A DNA stretch of 64,000 bases from positions 1-64,000 of the forward strand of contig JAJDED010000020.1 of assembly GCA_029259915.1 (NCBI GenBank), read 5' to 3'. The notes beneath the pieces were generated by a model that saw only the letters and a program-made list of their open reading frames with translations, ran no database searches and had not been told where the DNA came from. This DNA comes from Planctomycetota bacterium (GTDB lineage: Bacteria; Planctomycetota; Planctomycetia; Pirellulales; Lacipirellulaceae). Shown piece by piece: positions 2,944 through 10,725 of this stretch. Made by a program: the position numbers and the translations under genes. Numbering within the stretch: position 1 is the first letter of the stretch; each line of letters begins with the position of its first letter.

Positions 2944-3858
2944 CTACTGCCGCGAGAGAAGCCACCATTTCATCGTGCTCGTTACGATTTCATGGGCCTC
3001 CTGCTGCGCGAAGTGGCCTGCACCCGGAATGGTCACCAGCGTGTAATCCTTCTCCATCTGTTCCCAGCTATCATTCAGCGCCGGGTAAAGCAGAGCGGTG
3101 TCATTCATCCCGTGAAATTGCAAAACTGGCACGTGGATTTTGGGAAGAACACCGTCCGGAATTTCCTCGTACGGCTCTCTCGGATAATTCTGCCGATAAT
3201 AATTCATCATGCCATCGAAGCTGGATTGCTCAAACGCGGCTTTGTATTTTTCCTTCAAACCGGCATCGCCGCGAGAAACCATAGTGGACAACATCTCAGC
3301 ATTTAACCGCGTATGCGAGTCCGGCTCTTGAAATCTGCGCGCGTAGATGGAATTCGCCTGCTGCTGCTCACTGTTCGCAAGTTCACGTGAGAGCGGCTTC
3401 GGGTGAGGCAGGTTGACGATAATGAGCTTCTCGACCATCTCTGGCTCGCTCATGGTGAATTGCCAGGCGATCACACCACCCCAGTCGTGCCCGATAATGA
3501 TGGAGTTTTCCTGCCCCTGATCCCGGATAACGGCGGCAACGTCGGAAACGAGCAGGGTCATGTCGTAATTTTCCTGCCCCTCAGGTTTGTCGCTCAGATT
3601 ATAGCCGCGACAATCCAGAGCAGCGACGGTAAAGTTATCGGACAACCCGGCCATTTGATGATGCCAGGTGTACCAAAAATCAGGAAATCCGTGAATAAGA
3701 ACAACTAACGGGCCCTCGCCCATCGTGGCGTAATGAATGTTGACACCGTTGTTATCCACGTAATGATGCTCGACATCCGCTGTGACGTCGTTATCCTCTG
3801 CGAATCCTGCCGCGCTCACCGCCACCAGACACAGTGTAAATAGTACTCGTTTCAACAT
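2944..3858 (-). CDS. Exported alpha/beta hydrolase, epoxide hydrolase / dehalogenase type
   Basis: The first ~20 residues form a signal peptide (basic start, hydrophobic core, cleavage near AGFAE), so the enzyme likely acts in the periplasm. The mature part has the oxyanion-hole motif [10 protein letters not shown] and the nucleophile elbow GHDWGG with Asp as nucleophile. This is typical of soluble epoxide hydrolases and haloalkane dehalogenases rather than Ser lipases. A C-terminal [10 protein letters not shown] supplies the catalytic His. The total of 304 residues fits the family. The exact substrate is open. Confidence 0.88.
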
Positions 3859-3983
3859 CCCGGACTCCCCTTCGTTCCCATCATATTTTAGTCAGCTCAA
3901 CGCAATAGGAGATGAAACACCGTTGCGCGAAGAGGGTTCGCTCCCGCCCAACATTTAATCGAGGTCGAAGAGAAGGAACCCAT

Positions 3984-4017
3984 AAAAAAAACGGTGCTGA
4001 CCCTTAGGCCAGCACCG
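3984..4017 (-). terminator. Rho-independent terminator of groEL
   Basis: On the minus strand a hairpin with an 8-base outer stem (CGGTGCTG/CAGCACCG) and a short inner GG/CC pairing is followed by eight T residues. It starts 20 bases after the groEL stop codon. Confidence 0.9.
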
Positions 4018-4037
4018 CAATAAATCGTTTTTCGAGC

Positions 4038-5753
4038 TTACATCATGCCGGGCATTCCGCCCATGCCACCCATTCCGCCCATGCCTGGCATGCCACCTCC
4101 CATGCCGGGCATTCCGCCGCCCATTCCACCCATACCATGGTCGTGATCGTGGCCGGCGTGCTCATCTTCCTCTGAGGGGATTTCGGTGACTAACGAATCG
4201 GTCGTCAGCAGCAGTGCGGCCACGCTGGCAGCATTTTGCAGCGATGCGCGAACTACCTTCGCGGGGTCGATCACTCCGGCTTCCACTAAGTCGCAGTATT
4301 CATCTTTGTCGGCGTTGTAGCCTTCGTTTTTGCCTTTGGTTTGGCGAACACGATTGACGACCACGGCCCCGTCGACCCCGGCGTTCTCGGCGATGTAACG
4401 CAACGGATAGTCGAGCACTTTGCGCACGATTTCGATTCCGAGTGCTTCGTCGCCTTTCAAATCGAGTTTGTCGAGCGCCTTTTCCGATCGAAGCAGCGCC
4501 ACGCCACCGCCTGGCACGACACCTTCGGCCAAGGCTGCTTGGGTGGCTGCCCGGGCGTCGTCCAACAGGGCTTTGCGCTCTTTCATTTCGGTTTCGGTGG
4601 CTGCACCGCAGTTGATTTGAGCGACGCCGCCGGCCAATTTTGCCAGGCGTTCTTGCAGTTTTTCTCGATCGTAATCGCTGTCGGAGTTTTCGATCTCGCG
4701 ACGGATCAGTTCAGCACGGGCGGTGATATCTTCCTTTTTGCCACCGCCGCTAACCATGGTGGTGGTGTCGCTGGTAATGACGACCTTGCGGCATTTGCCC
4801 AAGTCGGAAAGTTGGACGCCATCGAGCTTGATGCCGAGATCTTTGAAAATTGCCGTTGCTCCGGTGAGCGTGGCGAGATCCCCCAACATGGCCTTGCGAC
4901 GATCGCCGTAGCCGGGGGCCTTGACCGCACAAACGTTGACAATGCCGCGTAGCTTATTCACCACAAGCGTGGCTAAGGCCTCGCCTTCAACGTCTTCGGC
5001 GATGATCAAGAGTTGCTTGCCTGCTTTGGACACGGCTTCGAGTAGGGGAACCATGTTCTTGGCATTGGAAATTTTTTCTTCAAATACCAAGACCAGGCAG
5101 TTCTCGAATTCGACCGATTGGTTGTCTTCGTTATTGACGAAATGGGGCGAAAGGAATCCGCGATCGAATTGCATGCCTTCGACCACTTCGACGGTCGTTT
5201 CGTTGCTGCGGCCTTCTTCGATTGTGATCACGCCGTCTTTGCCAACTTTGCCAAACGCCTCGGCAAGGACATTGCCAATCGAGGGATCGTTGTTGCCGGC
5301 GATGGTGGCGATTTGCTGGAGGCTTTTCTTGTTTTTTACGTCTACCGGTTCGGCCAATTTGCCGACCGCGGCGGAGACGGCTTCCACAGCCTTGTTGATG
5401 CCTCGGCTCAGTGCCATGGCATCCGCCCCGGCGGCGAGCATTTTCAGGCCTTCCTTATAAATTCCGTGAGCCAACACGGTTGCTGTGGTGGTGCCGTCGC
5501 CAGCGACGTCGTTCGTCTTGCTGGCTGCTTCCTTCACCAGTTGGGCTCCCAGGTTTTCGTAGGGATCGACCAACTCGATATCCTCGGCAACGGTGACACC
5601 ATCTTTTGTGACTTTTGGCGACCCCCAACCTTTGTCCAACACGGCATTACGACCACGGGGTCCGAGAGTGCTGCGGACCGCTCGAGCCAGTTTTTCAACT
5701 CCAGCCGCAAGTGACCTGCGGGCATCGTCCTCAAAAACCATTTGTTTGGGCAC
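4038..5753 (-). CDS. groEL: Chaperonin GroEL with His-rich and Gly/Met-rich tail
   Basis: GroEL forms the double-ring chaperonin that folds proteins with GroES in the cytoplasm. The 571 residues contain the hallmarks [13 protein letters not shown], the ATP-site [14 protein letters not shown] and [11 protein letters not shown]. The tail is longer than usual: an acidic and His-rich piece (HAGHDHDHG) precedes many GGM/PGM units. The start is GTG 5753 with GAGGAG six bases upstream. No groES is adjacent and no CIRCE repeat (the HrcA operator) was seen. A perfect sigma-54 promoter at 5931-5946 points at this gene, with a predicted leader of about 165 bases. Planctomycetes often carry several groEL copies, so this may be a specialised paralogue. 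Confidence 0.96.
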
Positions 5754-5930
5754 GTTCGACTCCTCTTTTGTTGTTGTCTAGTGTTATTTGTCTGGTGTTA
5801 TTTGAATATCGAGGGCTTGTGTGAGTTTTTTGCCTTACACTTGCACTTGGGACCTTGAATCAGCACCCCTCCCTCGGGGATGGATCAAAGCCTTTTTTGG
5901 CAGGTACACTGCAACGTAGAGACTCTTAAA

Positions 5931-5946
5931 AGCAAGCAGCGTGCCA
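5931..5946 (-). promoter_or_regulatory. Sigma-54 (-24/-12) promoter pointing at groEL
   Basis: Read on the minus strand, TGGCACG is followed by four bases and TTGCT, a perfect match to TGGCACG-N4-TTGCW. The GG and GC are separated by the required 10 bases. The predicted start is near 5920, about 165 bases before the groEL GTG. No good sigma-70 promoter was seen in the leader. Confidence 0.75.
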
Positions 5947-6119
5947 ACGGCAAGAGTGGAGAGTCAGCAGACGATTCATGCCTTGTTTCTAAGGATTACC
6001 AGAGATAAGGCGGTTTGAGAGACTCCGCCAGGAAGGTCCATAAAATGCCATTTTGGCAGTTTCTTGGGTCGGTCTCTACTCTTGGCGATTAGCTGCTCAC
6101 TGTGTTGGACCGATCCATC

Positions 6120-6135
6120 TGGCACGGTACTTGCC
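6120..6135 (+). promoter_or_regulatory. Second sigma-54 promoter, plus strand
   Basis: TGGCACG, four bases, then TTGCC, with correct GG-N10-GC spacing. It points away from groEL into a stretch without a convincing gene, so its product would be a small RNA or a very short peptide. A weaker plus-strand look-alike with two mismatches lies at 5898-5913. Confidence 0.6.
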
Positions 6136-6690
6136 CTTATGAGGGACTGGCCCAACCGTGCGTTGTCTTTTCCAAAGGCAACTCGGTTGGGGCCAATCCT
6201 CTCTACACGGAACATTTGCTAGTGAACGACATCTACGCACTCGCCTAGATCCTTCTTTTCTAAAGATTGAGAAGACGATTAGCGCAAGGGCCCCGCGCGA
6301 TTGGTGGGCGCTCGCGCTATTTGTCTCATCTTCTGCTCAATAAAGGTCAATCATGGGAGTAGACCAATGTAATCGCCTTTAAACGGATACAATCCAAAAA
6401 CACGCTGAGGAAGGCATATTTGCCGGCCTGAGGAGACGCTTACGCACGAAAGTATCTGCGTTTACGCGTCCGAACGACATGGTGCGCGCTCATCGGGCGC
6501 TATCGACACTGTGTTGTTTCACTCCTCGTTAGGTGGTCGGGGAGTATCCGCCCGAAGCGTGCGCAACAAGCCGTCGACACCGACGAACCCAGGAATGACT
6601 ATTCCTGCGGATTGGCGGTGATCCGCGCCCTGCTGCGCTTGAATGCAACGCCTTTGAAGAGGAAATGCGCGCTTTGCGCACCGAACGCCT

Positions 6691-6727
6691 TTCACCAATA
6701 TGGTGAAAGTGTGTCACCGTGATGGTG
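6691..6727. promoter_or_regulatory. Tandem dyad sites, possible enhancer-binding-protein sites
   Basis: Two copies of TCACC-N3-ATGGTG start at 6692 and 6714, exactly 22 bases (two helical turns) apart. The first is part of a 9+9 base palindrome around CTTTCACCA/TGGTGAAAG. Same-face tandem dyads upstream of sigma-54 promoters are typical of activator binding sites. The assignment is inference; the distance to the 7062 promoter (~350 bases) is rather long. Confidence 0.4.
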
Positions 6728-7061
6728 CGCGCATACATAACATTCTTTGCTGTAAAGGCTTAGGGTGCTCCGAAGGCCTTCTTTTCGCTGAGTTTTTGCA
6801 GTTCTGCAACATTCTGACTCACAGCAACTCCTGGATGCGTAGTCACTTCTGTCGATTCGTCTGCGAATCACCGATTTGGTGTTTCCCGCGGTTTGCGAAG
6901 TCTTCCAAACGATCGCAACTGCGTATTTTCCTCGAGAAAGTCTTCAAATCGGCTTAATCGTCATAAACCCATTGGTGACACATTCATGGGCGGCGCGAGG
7001 TTGCTGAGAAGGGTTGTTGTTCGAGGCCGATTCGCACATTTGGGGAGCATAAGCCCTCGGC

Positions 7062-7077
7062 TGGCACGCAGATTGCA
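7062..7077 (+). promoter_or_regulatory. Third sigma-54 promoter, upstream of the 66-residue gene
   Basis: TGGCACG, CAGA, TTGCA is a perfect -24/-12 element with correct GG/GC spacing. The predicted start near 7088 gives a leader of about 95 bases before ATG 7182. The transcript would end at the hairpin at 7424-7462, giving a defined ~370-base unit. Confidence 0.75.
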
Positions 7078-7181
7078 AAGGAATGTGGCGGAACAGTTAT
7101 GTCATGGCCCATTCAGGTCGGCGTGTACGTCAGCCATTTGGGTATGCAATAAGTTGGTCAGAACGAGAAAAAGGCTTTAAC

Positions 7182-7382
7182 ATGTTTAGTTATCAGCAGC
7201 AGAATAACTGCGATTACGACTCGTTGATCGTGGATGGAAAAAAAGTACATTCACGTAAGAAGGGGGTTGGTGTTGGCCGTATGCGATTCGCACTTTCAAA
7301 AAAGCGGAGTACTCGTACTCGCAGCTCAGGTCAGGCGATTGTAGGGATAGGGCACCGCCGAAACCGAAAGTGGACTTGGTAG
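7182..7382 (+). CDS. Small basic protein under a sigma-54 promoter
   Basis: This is a 66-residue frame starting at ATG 7182, with AAAAAGG eight bases upstream. The N-terminal part is polar (FSYQQQNNCDYDSL). The rest is strongly basic, with many Lys and Arg (KKVHSRKKG, LSKKRSTRTRS) and an aromatic end (RRNRKWTW). No membrane segment, signal peptide or known domain was recognised. The basic charge suggests nucleic-acid or ribosome binding, but this is only a guess. Support for a real gene comes from its setting: a perfect sigma-54 promoter before it and a strong terminator 42 bases after it. It could alternatively be a regulatory RNA that happens to contain an open frame. Confidence 0.6.
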   Translation: MFSYQQQNNCDYDSLIVDGKKVHSRKKGVGVGRMRFALSKKRSTRTRSSGQAIVGIGHRRNRKWTW

Positions 7383-7423
7383 TGTAGGTTAATTAACGGG
7401 TATCGCGCCGCTAAACAGCGATA

Positions 7424-7462
7424 GTCCGGCAGGCTTTGAACGGCCTGAGCCGGACTTTTTTT
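7424..7462 (+). terminator. Rho-independent terminator after the 66-residue gene
   Basis: A stem of 7 bp (GTCCGGC/GCCGGAC) extended by AGGC/GCCT with a two-base bulge is followed by seven T residues. It isolates the small gene from fabZ downstream. Confidence 0.88.
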
Positions 7463-7559
7463 ATGCGTTTCAGCCTGGTCGTCATCCGCAGAGCAGGTCG
7501 CTAGAATGTCGGCAATCCTAGCAACTTCCCTATCAATCGGTTCAGCAATCTTTCTGGCT

Positions 7560-7994
7560 ATGAGCTTGGAGACGATCAAAGCGGCGATTCCGCACCGTGC
7601 CCCGTTTCTTCTGATCGACGAAGTCGTCGAACAATCGGAGCAACGGATAGTTTGTCGCAAAACATTTTCTGGCGACGAATTCTGGTACCGTGGGCACTAT
7701 CCCCACTTTCCGATCACACCGGGTGTGTTGTTGTGCGAAGCGGCCATGCAGGCGGGGGCGGTGCTATTGGCTAGCAAGGTGCCTGACGATTCGGGGGCGG
7801 TGCCAGTGGCCACCCGGGTGAATAACGTGCAGTTCAAGAAAATGGTTTTTCCCGGAGACACGATCGAACTTGAGGTGAAACTCGTTGAACAACTGGCCAG
7901 CGCCTTTTTTCTCAAGGCGCGTGTGACGGTTGCCGGCAAGGTGGCTGCCCGGTTGGAATTTGCCTGCACGCTAGCTGAACCTGAGGCCTGCTGA
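7560..7994 (+). CDS. fabZ: 3-hydroxyacyl-ACP dehydratase, FabZ type
   Basis: FabZ removes water from 3-hydroxyacyl-ACP in fatty acid elongation. The hot-dog fold is visible, with [13 protein letters not shown] near the start and the active-site block [20 protein letters not shown] containing the catalytic His and Glu. I place the start at ATG 7560 because family members begin just before the PHR motif. An upstream ATG at 7506 would add 18 hydrophobic residues not normal for the family, although it has a slightly better ribosome site. The stop overlaps the fabI start by one base (TGATG), so the two are surely co-translated. Confidence 0.9.
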
Positions 7995-8824
7995 TGTCTG
8001 CCGACTTTTTGCAACTGGCTGGGAAACGCGTGTTGGTGTTTGGCGTGGCCAATCGCAAGAGCGTTGCTTATCACGTGGGCCAAGTGCTTCGTCAGGCCGA
8101 GGCCGAGGTGGTTTACGTAGTCCGCAGTCCGGAACGACGCGACTCGGTGGCAAAACTCGTTGAAGGCAGCGACGTTTACGTGTGCGACGTGGAGCATCAA
8201 GAGCAGATTGACAAACTCGCATCCGATTTAGCTGAGCAATACGATAACTTTAATGGCTTGGTGCATTCGATAGCTTTTGGCGATTACTCGGAGGGTCCCA
8301 AGGCATTCCATGAAACCAGCAAGAAACAGTTGTTACGAGCATTCGACATTTCGTGTTTTTCGCTGGTGGCTATTTGCAATGCGTTGAAGGATTACCTTAC
8401 TTCAGATGCCTCGGTGGTGACCATTTCGATATCCACCACGCGTATGGCGAGCGAGAATTATGGTTTTATGGCTCCGGTGAAGGCGGCCCTCGATTCGAGT
8501 TTGGCGTTTCTTGCGAAATCGTTTAGCCGTTTCTCCGAGATTCGATTCAATGCGGTTGCTCCGGGATTGTTGAAGACTTCTGCGTCGGCCGGCATCCCCG
8601 GTTATGTCGATTCCTATCTGTATGCCGAACGGGCGACACTCCGCAATCGAGCGGTTCAAACCGAAGAAGTGGCCAACACGGTGGCCTTTCTTCTGAGCCC
8701 TCGCTCCAGTGGGATTACGACTCAGCGATTGGTAGTTGACGCAGGTATGGAGGTGAATTATTTCGATGAGCGGCTGATCCGGGGTTTTTTGCAAGGGGAC
8801 CCGCTGGGGGGCGAGTCGGAGTGA
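7994..8824 (+). CDS. fabI: Enoyl-ACP reductase, FabI type
   Basis: FabI reduces the enoyl-ACP made by the dehydratase encoded just upstream, using NAD(P)H. The N-terminal [13 protein letters not shown] is the FabI form of the nucleotide-binding loop. The catalytic pair Tyr156 and Lys163 (Y-x6-K, in [10 protein letters not shown]) falls at exactly the E. coli FabI numbers. The second conserved Tyr of FabI, ten residues before Tyr156 (Tyr146 in E. coli), is Ile here in my alignment. This could alter activity or triclosan binding. The C-terminal [11 protein letters not shown] is typical. Overlap with fabZ marks an operon. Confidence 0.9.
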
Positions 8825-9171
8825 TTTGCCGAAAAGTCCAGCTAGGAAAATCGCAGGTTTATGGATTTTTCGTGATTTCACCGCTGGAAAACGAGAGTCT
8901 TTCGATTCGATGATGGCAGAATGTCGCCCTAGATGATATTCTGTAAGTAGAGGCGGAGTCACGAGTTTGGTCAGCAGCCGAAGTAGCAATGGAATGATAC
9001 CCGAGGAAGTTGGTGAGCGTGTGTACTCCAAAAGGTAACAGAGAAATCTCATCTTCAGGACAATCGAATCGATGGTCGGCGCTGCCATTTGGCAACATAG
9101 TGGCGGTGCATGCGTTGTGTATGCGGTGTGCCGTCATGAGTTGAGCACCCCATCGGTTCGATGCGCTATTT
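8825..9171. other. Intergenic region upstream of the kinase gene
   Basis: About 350 bases with no convincing gene. A 92-codon minus-strand frame has no family signature and no ribosome site. No strong promoter or hairpin was seen. Confidence 0.5.
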
Positions 9172-10725
9172 ATGTCTAAAGCAGTGGCCCAAAGTTTTCT
9201 GGATCTTGTGAGACGGAGTCAGTTGATCGAAGAAGATCAGCTCGACAAGTTTCTTGCCAAATATCTGGCAAGTTGCGGCGGCACTCTACCAGAACGTCAA
9301 GAGGCGATTTCTGAAGCGCTGATTGAAGCCGACTTGCTGACCGAATGGCAGGCGGAAAAACTTCTCGCGGGGAAGCACAAGGGATTCAACCTCGGCAAGT
9401 ACAAGTTGTTGCGGCATCTTGGCAAGGGAGGGATGAGTCAGGTTTATCTTGCCGAGCACAAGTTGATGAGGCGTAAGGTAGCCATCAAAGTACTGCCGCA
9501 GAACCGAGTGGAAGATTCCACGTATCTCGAAAGATTTCGTATTGAAGCTCGAGCTGCGGCCAAGCTGGACGATCCCAACATTGTTCGCGCGTACGATATC
9601 GATCAAGACGGCAAAACGCACTTTTTGGTGATGGAGTACGTGGAAGGCAAGGATCTCCATGTGCTAGTGAAAGATAGCGGCCCGCTGAATTACGATACGG
9701 CGGCCGACTATATCGCCCAAACTGCCCGAGGATTGGCCCATGCCCATGCGATGGGGCTCGTGCATCGTGATATCAAACCGGCAAATTGTTTGGTCGACAA
9801 GAACCAGACCATCAAACTTCTCGACATGGGTTTAGCCCGGATAACCGATGACGAGGCCTCGCTGACACTGGATAACAATGAAAATGTTTTGGGTACCGCC
9901 GACTACCTCGCTCCGGAGCAAGCCCTCAACAGCCATAAAGCCGATACGCGTGCCGACATCTATAGCTTGGGATGCACTTTGTATTTTCTTTTGACGGGGC
10001 ACCCTCCTTTCCCGGAAGGATCGATTTCGGAGCGGTTGCTTAAGCACCAGGTTGAAACGCCCCCCAGTGTTCTTGTCGCTCGTCCCGACGCGCCCCCAAC
10101 GCTCGTTCACATTTGCGAAAAGATGATGGCCAAGAACCCGGACGAGCGGTATCAAACGGCTACTGATATTTCTGAGCGGTTGGCGGAGTGGTTGGCAGAC
10201 CGTGGGAGAGAAGTGGGGGAAAGCGGCAAGCAAAGCGGTTCCAAGTCTGGAGTGGGGAGCGATGTTTTCAGTCGGTTTGCGGCTGCCTTAGGAAAAACAA
10301 AACAGGGGTCAAGCAGTGGCATTCATAGCGGCTCTTCTAAGAAATCTTTAATGGCACAATCGTCGGCTTCGGACCTGGCAGATGAAGAAATTGGGCTCGC
10401 TCCTTTGGATGAGGAAAATGCTCCCGACGCCGCCGAAGATGCTGGCGACATGGCTGCCAGGTCGACCGACGATCTCACTTCGGCCACTCGCGACACCGTT
10501 GCCGAGCGGCCTCACAAATCGCTTATCGAAGAGGCACTCGAAGCAGAGCCAAATCAGCCGGTGGTAAGCGAGCGTTTCCAAACCCAGCCGGGCGAGGTCA
10601 ACCCGCTGCGCCCGCCCGGTTTTATCGGACCGAGCTATGGAACCCCGACTTGGGTTTATGTGGCTGTGGGAATGGGGGTCTTTGCGCTCTTGGGAATCGC
10701 GATTTTGTTGTTTATCTTTTCGTAG
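9172..10725 (+). CDS. Membrane-anchored Ser/Thr protein kinase
   Basis: A Hanks-type (eukaryotic-like) kinase of 517 residues. Residues 1-75 form an all-helical extension (LIEEDQLDKFL, LIEADLLTEWQAEKLLAG) that planctomycete kinases often share. The kinase domain runs from about 77 to 345: Gly loop GKGGMSQV (84-91), catalytic Lys106, HRDIKPAN with Asp200, and DMG (218-220) in place of the usual DFG. The activation segment ends in YLAPEQ. A low-complexity Ser/Asp-rich linker follows, then one membrane helix at about 493-515 near the C-terminus. The kinase part should therefore face the cytoplasm. There is no PASTA or other sensor domain. The target is unknown. Confidence 0.93.
   Translation: MSKAVAQSFLDLVRRSQLIEEDQLDKFLAKYLASCGGTLPERQEAISEALIEADLLTEWQAEKLLAGKHKGFNLGKYKLLRHLGKGGMSQVYLAEHKLMRRKVAIKVLPQNRVEDSTYLERFRIEARAAAKLDDPNIVRAYDIDQDGKTHFLVMEYVEGKDLHVLVKDSGPLNYDTAADYIAQTARGLAHAHAMGLVHRDIKPANCLVDKNQTIKLLDMGLARITDDEASLTLDNNENVLGTADYLAPEQALNSHKADTRADIYSLGCTLYFLLTGHPPFPEGSISERLLKHQVETPPSVLVARPDAPPTLVHICEKMMAKNPDERYQTATDISERLAEWLADRGREVGESGKQSGSKSGVGSDVFSRFAAALGKTKQGSSSGIHSGSSKKSLMAQSSASDLADEEIGLAPLDEENAPDAAEDAGDMAARSTDDLTSATRDTVAERPHKSLIEEALEAEPNQPVVSERFQTQPGEVNPLRPPGFIGPSYGTPTWVYVAVGMGVFALLGIAILLFIFS

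Follow-up and report, generated by a model that had tools for sequence, protein, structure and literature searches.

Bacterial heat shock has mostly been ascribed to dedicated factors of the sigma-70 family or to repressors, and joint control of groE and dnaK is known from the HrcA/CIRCE and RpoH systems. RNA polymerase carrying sigma-54 forms a closed complex at its promoter, which opens only when an ATPase bound to an upstream enhancer contacts the polymerase through a DNA loop. A chaperonin operon with a promoter of this type is the groESL copy of Bradyrhizobium japonicum that is activated by NifA from an enhancer upstream; the NifA site reads TGT-N10-ACA. The two-component system HsfA/HsfB, in which HsfA is an NtrC-like sigma-54 activator, reportedly activates lonD in Myxococcus xanthus, as described by Ueki and Inouye in 2002. 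Studholme and Dixon are said to have treated the sigma-54 activators of Pirellula sp. strain 1 in 2004, and may already have listed some of the promoters discussed here. According to the part consulted of a survey from 2025, sigma-54 promoters are enriched at the GroEL, GroES, GrpE, DnaJ, DnaK and IbpA families in Planctomycetota and Bacteroidota, and this enrichment at chaperones is concentrated in Planctomycetia (PMC12316311). The consulted part of a study of Rhodopirellula baltica reports that Cpn60, Cpn10, GroEL, DnaJ, GrpE, Hsp20 and DnaK are induced by heat, that rpoH is present, and that neither rpoH nor rpoN is regulated on heat shock (PMC2754498).

We analyzed a stretch of 64,000 nucleotides (the window) from a planctomycete of the family Lacipirellulaceae, in which a groEL gene of 571 aa with a GTG start lies at positions 4038-5753 on the minus strand (Pfam and NCBIfam), followed by a terminator-like hairpin found by motif scan (3991-4018, minus strand). 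It is one of four groEL genes in this genome and stands alone. At the nine other loci of the genus with flanking sequence, a second groEL and dnaJ come after the groEL orthologue; the genome under study carries that operon on contig C52 (L132), where the first groEL shares just 58-62% identity with the 4038-5753 copy. An earlier note on this DNA had placed a sigma-54 promoter, TGGCACG-N4-TTGC with GG-N10-GC spacing, on the minus strand before groEL. The minus-strand sequence at 5946-5932, TGGCACGCTGCTTGC, has this spacing and matches the motif at 11 of 11 positions. The first T of the site is 193 bp from the GTG at 5753, and the leader of about 165 bases given in the note is correct provided that transcription starts at the usual distance. 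The note had also seen neither a CIRCE operator nor a good sigma-70 promoter, and both statements held: no CIRCE-like sequence was found within three mismatches in the window or in 270 loci, and a simple scan of the minus strand between 3860 and 7560 listed no sigma-70 promoter. An additional ordinary groEL promoter may exist. The genome contains one rpoN gene (E 2.8e-63 to PF04552), and a search of positions 3500-9500 against Rfam gave a single match, far below the cut-off of its family.

The chance expectation of 0.03 perfect matches per window that accompanied the note is right for even base use and does not carry over to the genome, where about two are expected by an arithmetic estimate and five were found in 4.2 Mb. 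Because a reversed control pattern gave two, the perfect match by itself is modest evidence, and its weight comes from position and conservation. Three of the five perfect matches fall within one gap, the 1.75 kb that separate groEL from the next clear gene, at 7506. They are at 5932-5946 (minus strand), 6120-6134 (plus strand) and 7062-7076 (plus strand). Of the remaining two (L001 on contig C3 and L005 on contig C24), one separates an activator gene from genes resembling those of the flagellar rod and the other is close to a cytochrome-like gene, with the genes identified by reading the sequence.

To assess conservation, we compared the upstream regions of groEL genes taken from the best 80 of at least 593 named loci and from 14 genomes of the genus. 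This gave 91 orthologous loci (identity above 60.5%) after removal of repeats (L008-L010 and L095), a number in which L043 and L098, apparently from the same organism, are both counted, as are other close relatives. A same-strand GG-N10-GC site matching at least 9 of 11 positions within 400 bp of groEL was present at 81 of the 91 planctomycete loci, which strongly supports a sigma-54 promoter for groEL. The retention of GG and GC in close relatives, set beforehand as a test, was seen in every one of the ten orthologues of the genus for which upstream sequence was available (L096-L105, representing 10 of the 13 other genomes of the genus), each with at least 10 of 11 matches. Loci with the site extend to Thalassoglobus (L071), Singulisphaera (L076) and Gemmataceae (L082); both Phycisphaerae records (L086 and L092) were negative for it. 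Among the ten loci without the site, L085 has just 123 bp of upstream sequence, six (L068, L072, L080, L089, L090 and L094) have a palindrome-like sequence followed at 87-111 bp by a site with 8 of 11 matches, and three (L075, L086 and L092) showed no pairing of palindrome and site before groEL even under looser limits. When the DNA of the whole gap was compared with 58 relatives, just 26-30 bp around the groEL start matched, in three of them; the gap is therefore conserved as short elements and not as a block.

Alignment of 13 groEL upstream regions revealed at least two such elements besides the promoter: a block CTGCCAAAATGGCA, 89-112 bp upstream of it, and the hexamer CTGCCA, located about 43 bp downstream of the promoter's first base. 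The first corresponds in the window to a palindrome that was absent from the earlier note, TGCCAAAATGGCA, at 6046-6058, about 112 bp upstream of the groEL promoter. Its general form is TGCCA-N3-TGGCA, with C or T at the third base, and with at most one mismatch it occurs within 600 bp of groEL at 72 of the 91 loci. Exact copies of CTGCCAAAATGGCA exist at two places only in the genome, one at 6046-6059 and one on contig C33 upstream of groES-groEL, both before chaperonin genes. With one mismatch allowed, there are six places vs. five for the reversed control, and exact copies alone are therefore informative. The palindrome is likely bound by a bacterial enhancer-binding protein, and we annotate it as a predicted enhancer.

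We then defined a pair as TGYCA-N3-TGRCA (at most one mismatch) followed at 78-136 bp by a sigma-54 site with at least 9 of 11 matches, and counted it before several kinds of chaperone gene. Upstream pieces shorter than 250 bp were excluded, which kept 88 of 91 groEL loci, 10 of 11 groES-groEL loci and 29 of 30 dnaK loci; the 30 dnaK loci had been collected from 57 genomes by protein search, independently of the element. The pair was present before groEL at 63 of 88 loci, before groES-groEL at 10 of 10 and before dnaK at 24 of 29; it was missing in this strict form at 25 groEL and five dnaK loci. In a comparison set with 83 members, made up chiefly of the second groEL from the operon, the pair did not occur; some genes enter this set twice via overlapping loci, and it includes L108, which resembles the groES-groEL type. 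On the opposite strand, the counts were 2/88, 0/10, 0/29 and 1/83 for groEL, groES-groEL, dnaK and the comparison set, and the largest counts in 50 dinucleotide shuffles were 1, 0, 0 and 1, respectively.

A blind search with a gapped pattern found the pair in 117 of 196 Pirellulales genomes, and in 91 when only the 158 more complete genomes are considered; 79 of the 196 lack it in the strict form. The reversed control of this pattern gave one match, in genome G017. Of 30 blind matches that were laid out, 29 precede a chaperone gene (groEL 17, hsp20 6, dnaK 4, groES-groEL 2), the exception being L165; of 20 further matches, hand-picked for spread over families, 18 do (groEL 10, hsp20 4, groEL of the C33 type 4), bringing the sampled matches before chaperone genes to 47 of 50. 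For two matches from two families (L279 in G060 and L282 in G076), the reading frames that follow resemble each other on visual inspection and encode a repeat-like, non-chaperone protein, a possible further member of the regulon.

The genome under study carries the pair before the 4038-5753 groEL, before groES-groEL on contig C33 (TGGCGCG-N4-TTGC, 132 bp after the palindrome) and before dnaK on contig C1 (TGCCAACTTGGCA, at a spacing of 111 bp, with 10 of 11 promoter matches). A weak form precedes the groEL-groES-groEL-dnaJ-grpE operon on contig C52, where TGACATTGTGGCA (one mismatch in the palindrome) and AGGCATGACACTTGC (9 of 11 promoter matches) lie 99 bp apart by our own count. The sole hsp20 gene of the genome, on contig C38, has two exact palindromes and a weak promoter (8 of 11). 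One regulatory element is thus common to groE, dnaK and small heat-shock genes, the hsp20 of this genome having it only in the weak form.

The distances from palindrome to promoter cluster near 90, 101, 111, 121 and 132 bp, in steps of roughly a helical turn. The strength of the period at 10.5 bp was 0.53 in a hand-compiled list of distances; a recount from the sequence with wider limits gave 0.45 at 10.5 bp and a peak of 0.48 at 10 bp, vs. about 0.09 for smoothed versions of the distribution, none of 20000 of which reached the observed value. When only distinct values of gene and spacing were counted, 643 of 20000 null draws reached the observed periodicity. Since the sequences are related and relatives were counted as separate loci, we take the helical periodicity as indicative. 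Such spacing would fit an activator and a polymerase that have to be aligned on one side of the DNA helix.

The second conserved element, CTGCCA, lies in the window at 5898-5903 on the minus strand, shortly downstream of the predicted groEL transcription start, and is a half-site of the palindrome. At 59 of 81 groEL loci, TGCCA occurs 40-48 bp downstream of the promoter's first base, vs. about 1.3 in stretches of equal width elsewhere; C precedes it in 98% of the 59 loci, and it falls near +17 of the expected transcript. At 16 dnaK and groES-groEL promoters, the half-site was not clear at that place. In groEL it may offer the same regulator a second point of contact, and its action could be at the level of either the DNA or the leader RNA.

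Further elements lie in the remainder of the gap. On the other side of the palindrome, the perfect site at 6120-6134 points away from groEL, and counterparts with at least 9 of 11 matches were found 61-124 bp from the palindrome at 7 of 11 loci of the genus. These seven loci share no reading frame, no well-aligned RNA and no conserved product beyond the divergent site. A short block at about 6356-6390 on the plus strand (GTAGACCAATGTAA, followed about 12 bp on by a GAACAAT-like sequence) recurs beyond the divergent promoter in several loci of the genus. The third perfect site, at 7062-7076, lies 105 bp before an unannotated gene at 7182-7382 (plus strand) for a basic protein of 66 aa ending in HRRNRKWTW, which is conserved in the genus; a hairpin followed by a T run, read by eye and absent from the motif-scan list, comes after the gene at 7423-7462 (plus strand). 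Upstream is a palindrome of a second type, CACCA-N3-TGGTG, at 6693-6705, inside a perfect inverted repeat of 21 bp (6689-6709), and a further palindrome lies at 6715-6727. The small-protein gene occurs at eight loci of the genus, always beside groEL, and all eight have a sigma-54 site with at least 9 of 11 matches 293-348 bp before the stop codon and a perfect CACCA-N3-TGGTG 300-369 bp further up; this palindrome is a possible enhancer of the gene. One locus with sufficient flank (L151) is without it. A protein search with the single 66-aa sequence matched only itself, and a profile of the eight proteins matched 17 proteins including that of the window, one of them named 'hypothetical protein' and the others nameless.

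Taken together, we consider it probable, on the strength of motifs and their conservation, that these elements form a heat-shock regulon under sigma-54 and an enhancer, in which one activator would open the palindrome-bearing chaperone promoters together under protein-folding stress. The sites, the palindromes, their association with chaperone genes and the pattern of spacing are observed directly; a palindrome at helical steps upstream of the promoters has the look of a site for an activator of this kind. Sigma-54 RNA polymerase would sit closed at the chaperone promoters until, on protein-folding stress, one activator binds the palindrome, reaches the polymerase by DNA looping and opens these promoters together. 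We infer one common activator because the palindrome is common to the chaperone genes, and its binding, the activation itself and heat as the signal would follow the same scheme; heat induction of the genes here is suggested by its occurrence in R. baltica. A search for HrcA in 39 genomes (this one and 38 relatives) gave no match, with 7 of 14 control genomes positive, and the arrangement therefore likely does the work of the HrcA/CIRCE switch. We lean slightly toward the wider proposal that Pirellulales, and probably most Planctomycetia, run heat shock via sigma-54, with the reader of TGCCA-N3-TGGCA as master activator of groEL, groES, dnaK and hsp20 in place of HrcA/CIRCE or RpoH, and with the contact past the groEL start as a feedback point.

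The genome encodes 14 strong and three weak matches to the sigma-54 activator domain. We looked for reciprocal best hits between this genome and five element-carrying genomes of other families, in a set that left out L139 (= L235) of this genome and L216, L228 and L233 of G110. Four activators (L134, L136, L138 and L140) were kept in all five genomes, L142 in four (34-35% identity), L144 and L145 in three, and L141 in one. By Pfam, L134, L136 and L138 have receiver-AAA-HTH architecture and are conserved two-component candidates for an activator of the HsfA type. L140, a candidate of some interest, is AAA-HTH alone and directly follows a protein of 734 aa, a neighbor that recurs in five of six genomes; L142 begins with a stretch that looks FHA-like by eye. 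Neighboring genes, recognition helices and palindromes near the activator genes singled out no candidate and tied none to the site. The sigma-54 activator L141, on contig C64, carries a protoglobin domain at its N-terminus (Pfam E 3.8e-36) and may sense gas or haem.

That none of the 14 strong activators could be linked to the palindrome would also suit a reading, which we hold to be unlikely, in which the sigma-54 sites are real and the palindrome is bound by a separate regulator such as a repressor, or several activators serve the chaperone promoters, so that there is no single heat-shock activator. The variable third base of the palindrome agrees with it, and the half-site at a fixed distance after the groEL start could be the contact of a repressor. 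Against it, the palindrome keeps its helical steps upstream, the usual place of an enhancer, instead of lying over the promoter, and the same palindrome is common to groEL, groES-groEL, dnaK and hsp20.

It is very improbable that the 4038-5753 gene is an extra copy under NifA-type control by nitrogen or oxygen, as in Bradyrhizobium. A solitary copy among four groEL genes would suit such a role, but the same pair also stands before dnaK, hsp20 and groES-groEL, the palindrome differs from the NifA site, and the four activators, out of 14, that were scanned against NCBIfam all scored below the NifA cut-off. The likening to the NifA-activated groESL of Bradyrhizobium made in the earlier note thus fails against the spread of the pair over groEL, groES-groEL, dnaK and hsp20 in Pirellulales, and the rarity it ascribed to sigma-54 control of a chaperonin does not apply here; the arrangement extends across the lineage at heat-shock genes, and the 2025 survey had already recorded sigma-54 promoters in large numbers at chaperone genes of Planctomycetia. 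A chance motif beside an unrecognised ordinary groEL promoter is suggested by the genome-wide count (about two perfect matches expected and five found, with two for the reversed control) and is scarcely credible given that site, palindrome and spacing are conserved vs. shuffles, the opposite strand and the second-groEL set.

Among the described systems, HrcA/CIRCE and RpoH control groE and dnaK jointly, as is proposed for the sigma-54 regulon; the HrcA/CIRCE system differs in its parts, with no HrcA found in the 39 genomes and no CIRCE in the window and 270 loci. The groESL copy of B. japonicum likewise has a sigma-54-type promoter before a chaperonin and, as is predicted here, an enhancer upstream, but there one copy is tied to nitrogen fixation, whereas here groEL, groES, dnaK and hsp20 share a different palindrome. 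HsfA/HsfB of M. xanthus reportedly also places a heat-shock gene under a sigma-54 activator, in that case one protease gene and here, in the proposed regulon, the main chaperones. The work of Studholme and Dixon likewise concerns the sigma-54 promoters and activators of a planctomycete, and it could pre-empt part of the novelty of our findings. If the regulon is real, an essential response would follow a logic unlike that of sigma-70-family factors or repressors: the chaperone set would be silent without its activator and controlled by looping, through a switch that uses ATP. In that case the palindrome and the spacing rule would offer a direct means of capturing the activator for an entire bacterial order. 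The 2025 survey covers the same genes, promoter class and phylum, mainly the class Planctomycetia, and the promoter class at these chaperone genes is already known from it; the part consulted gives results by gene family and does not describe an enhancer, a spacing rule or a shared activator (PMC12316311). The open-access literature searched yielded no description of these three, and within it the shared enhancer and spacing appear to be new. They would turn the bulk statistical hint of the survey into a testable regulon in cultivable species.
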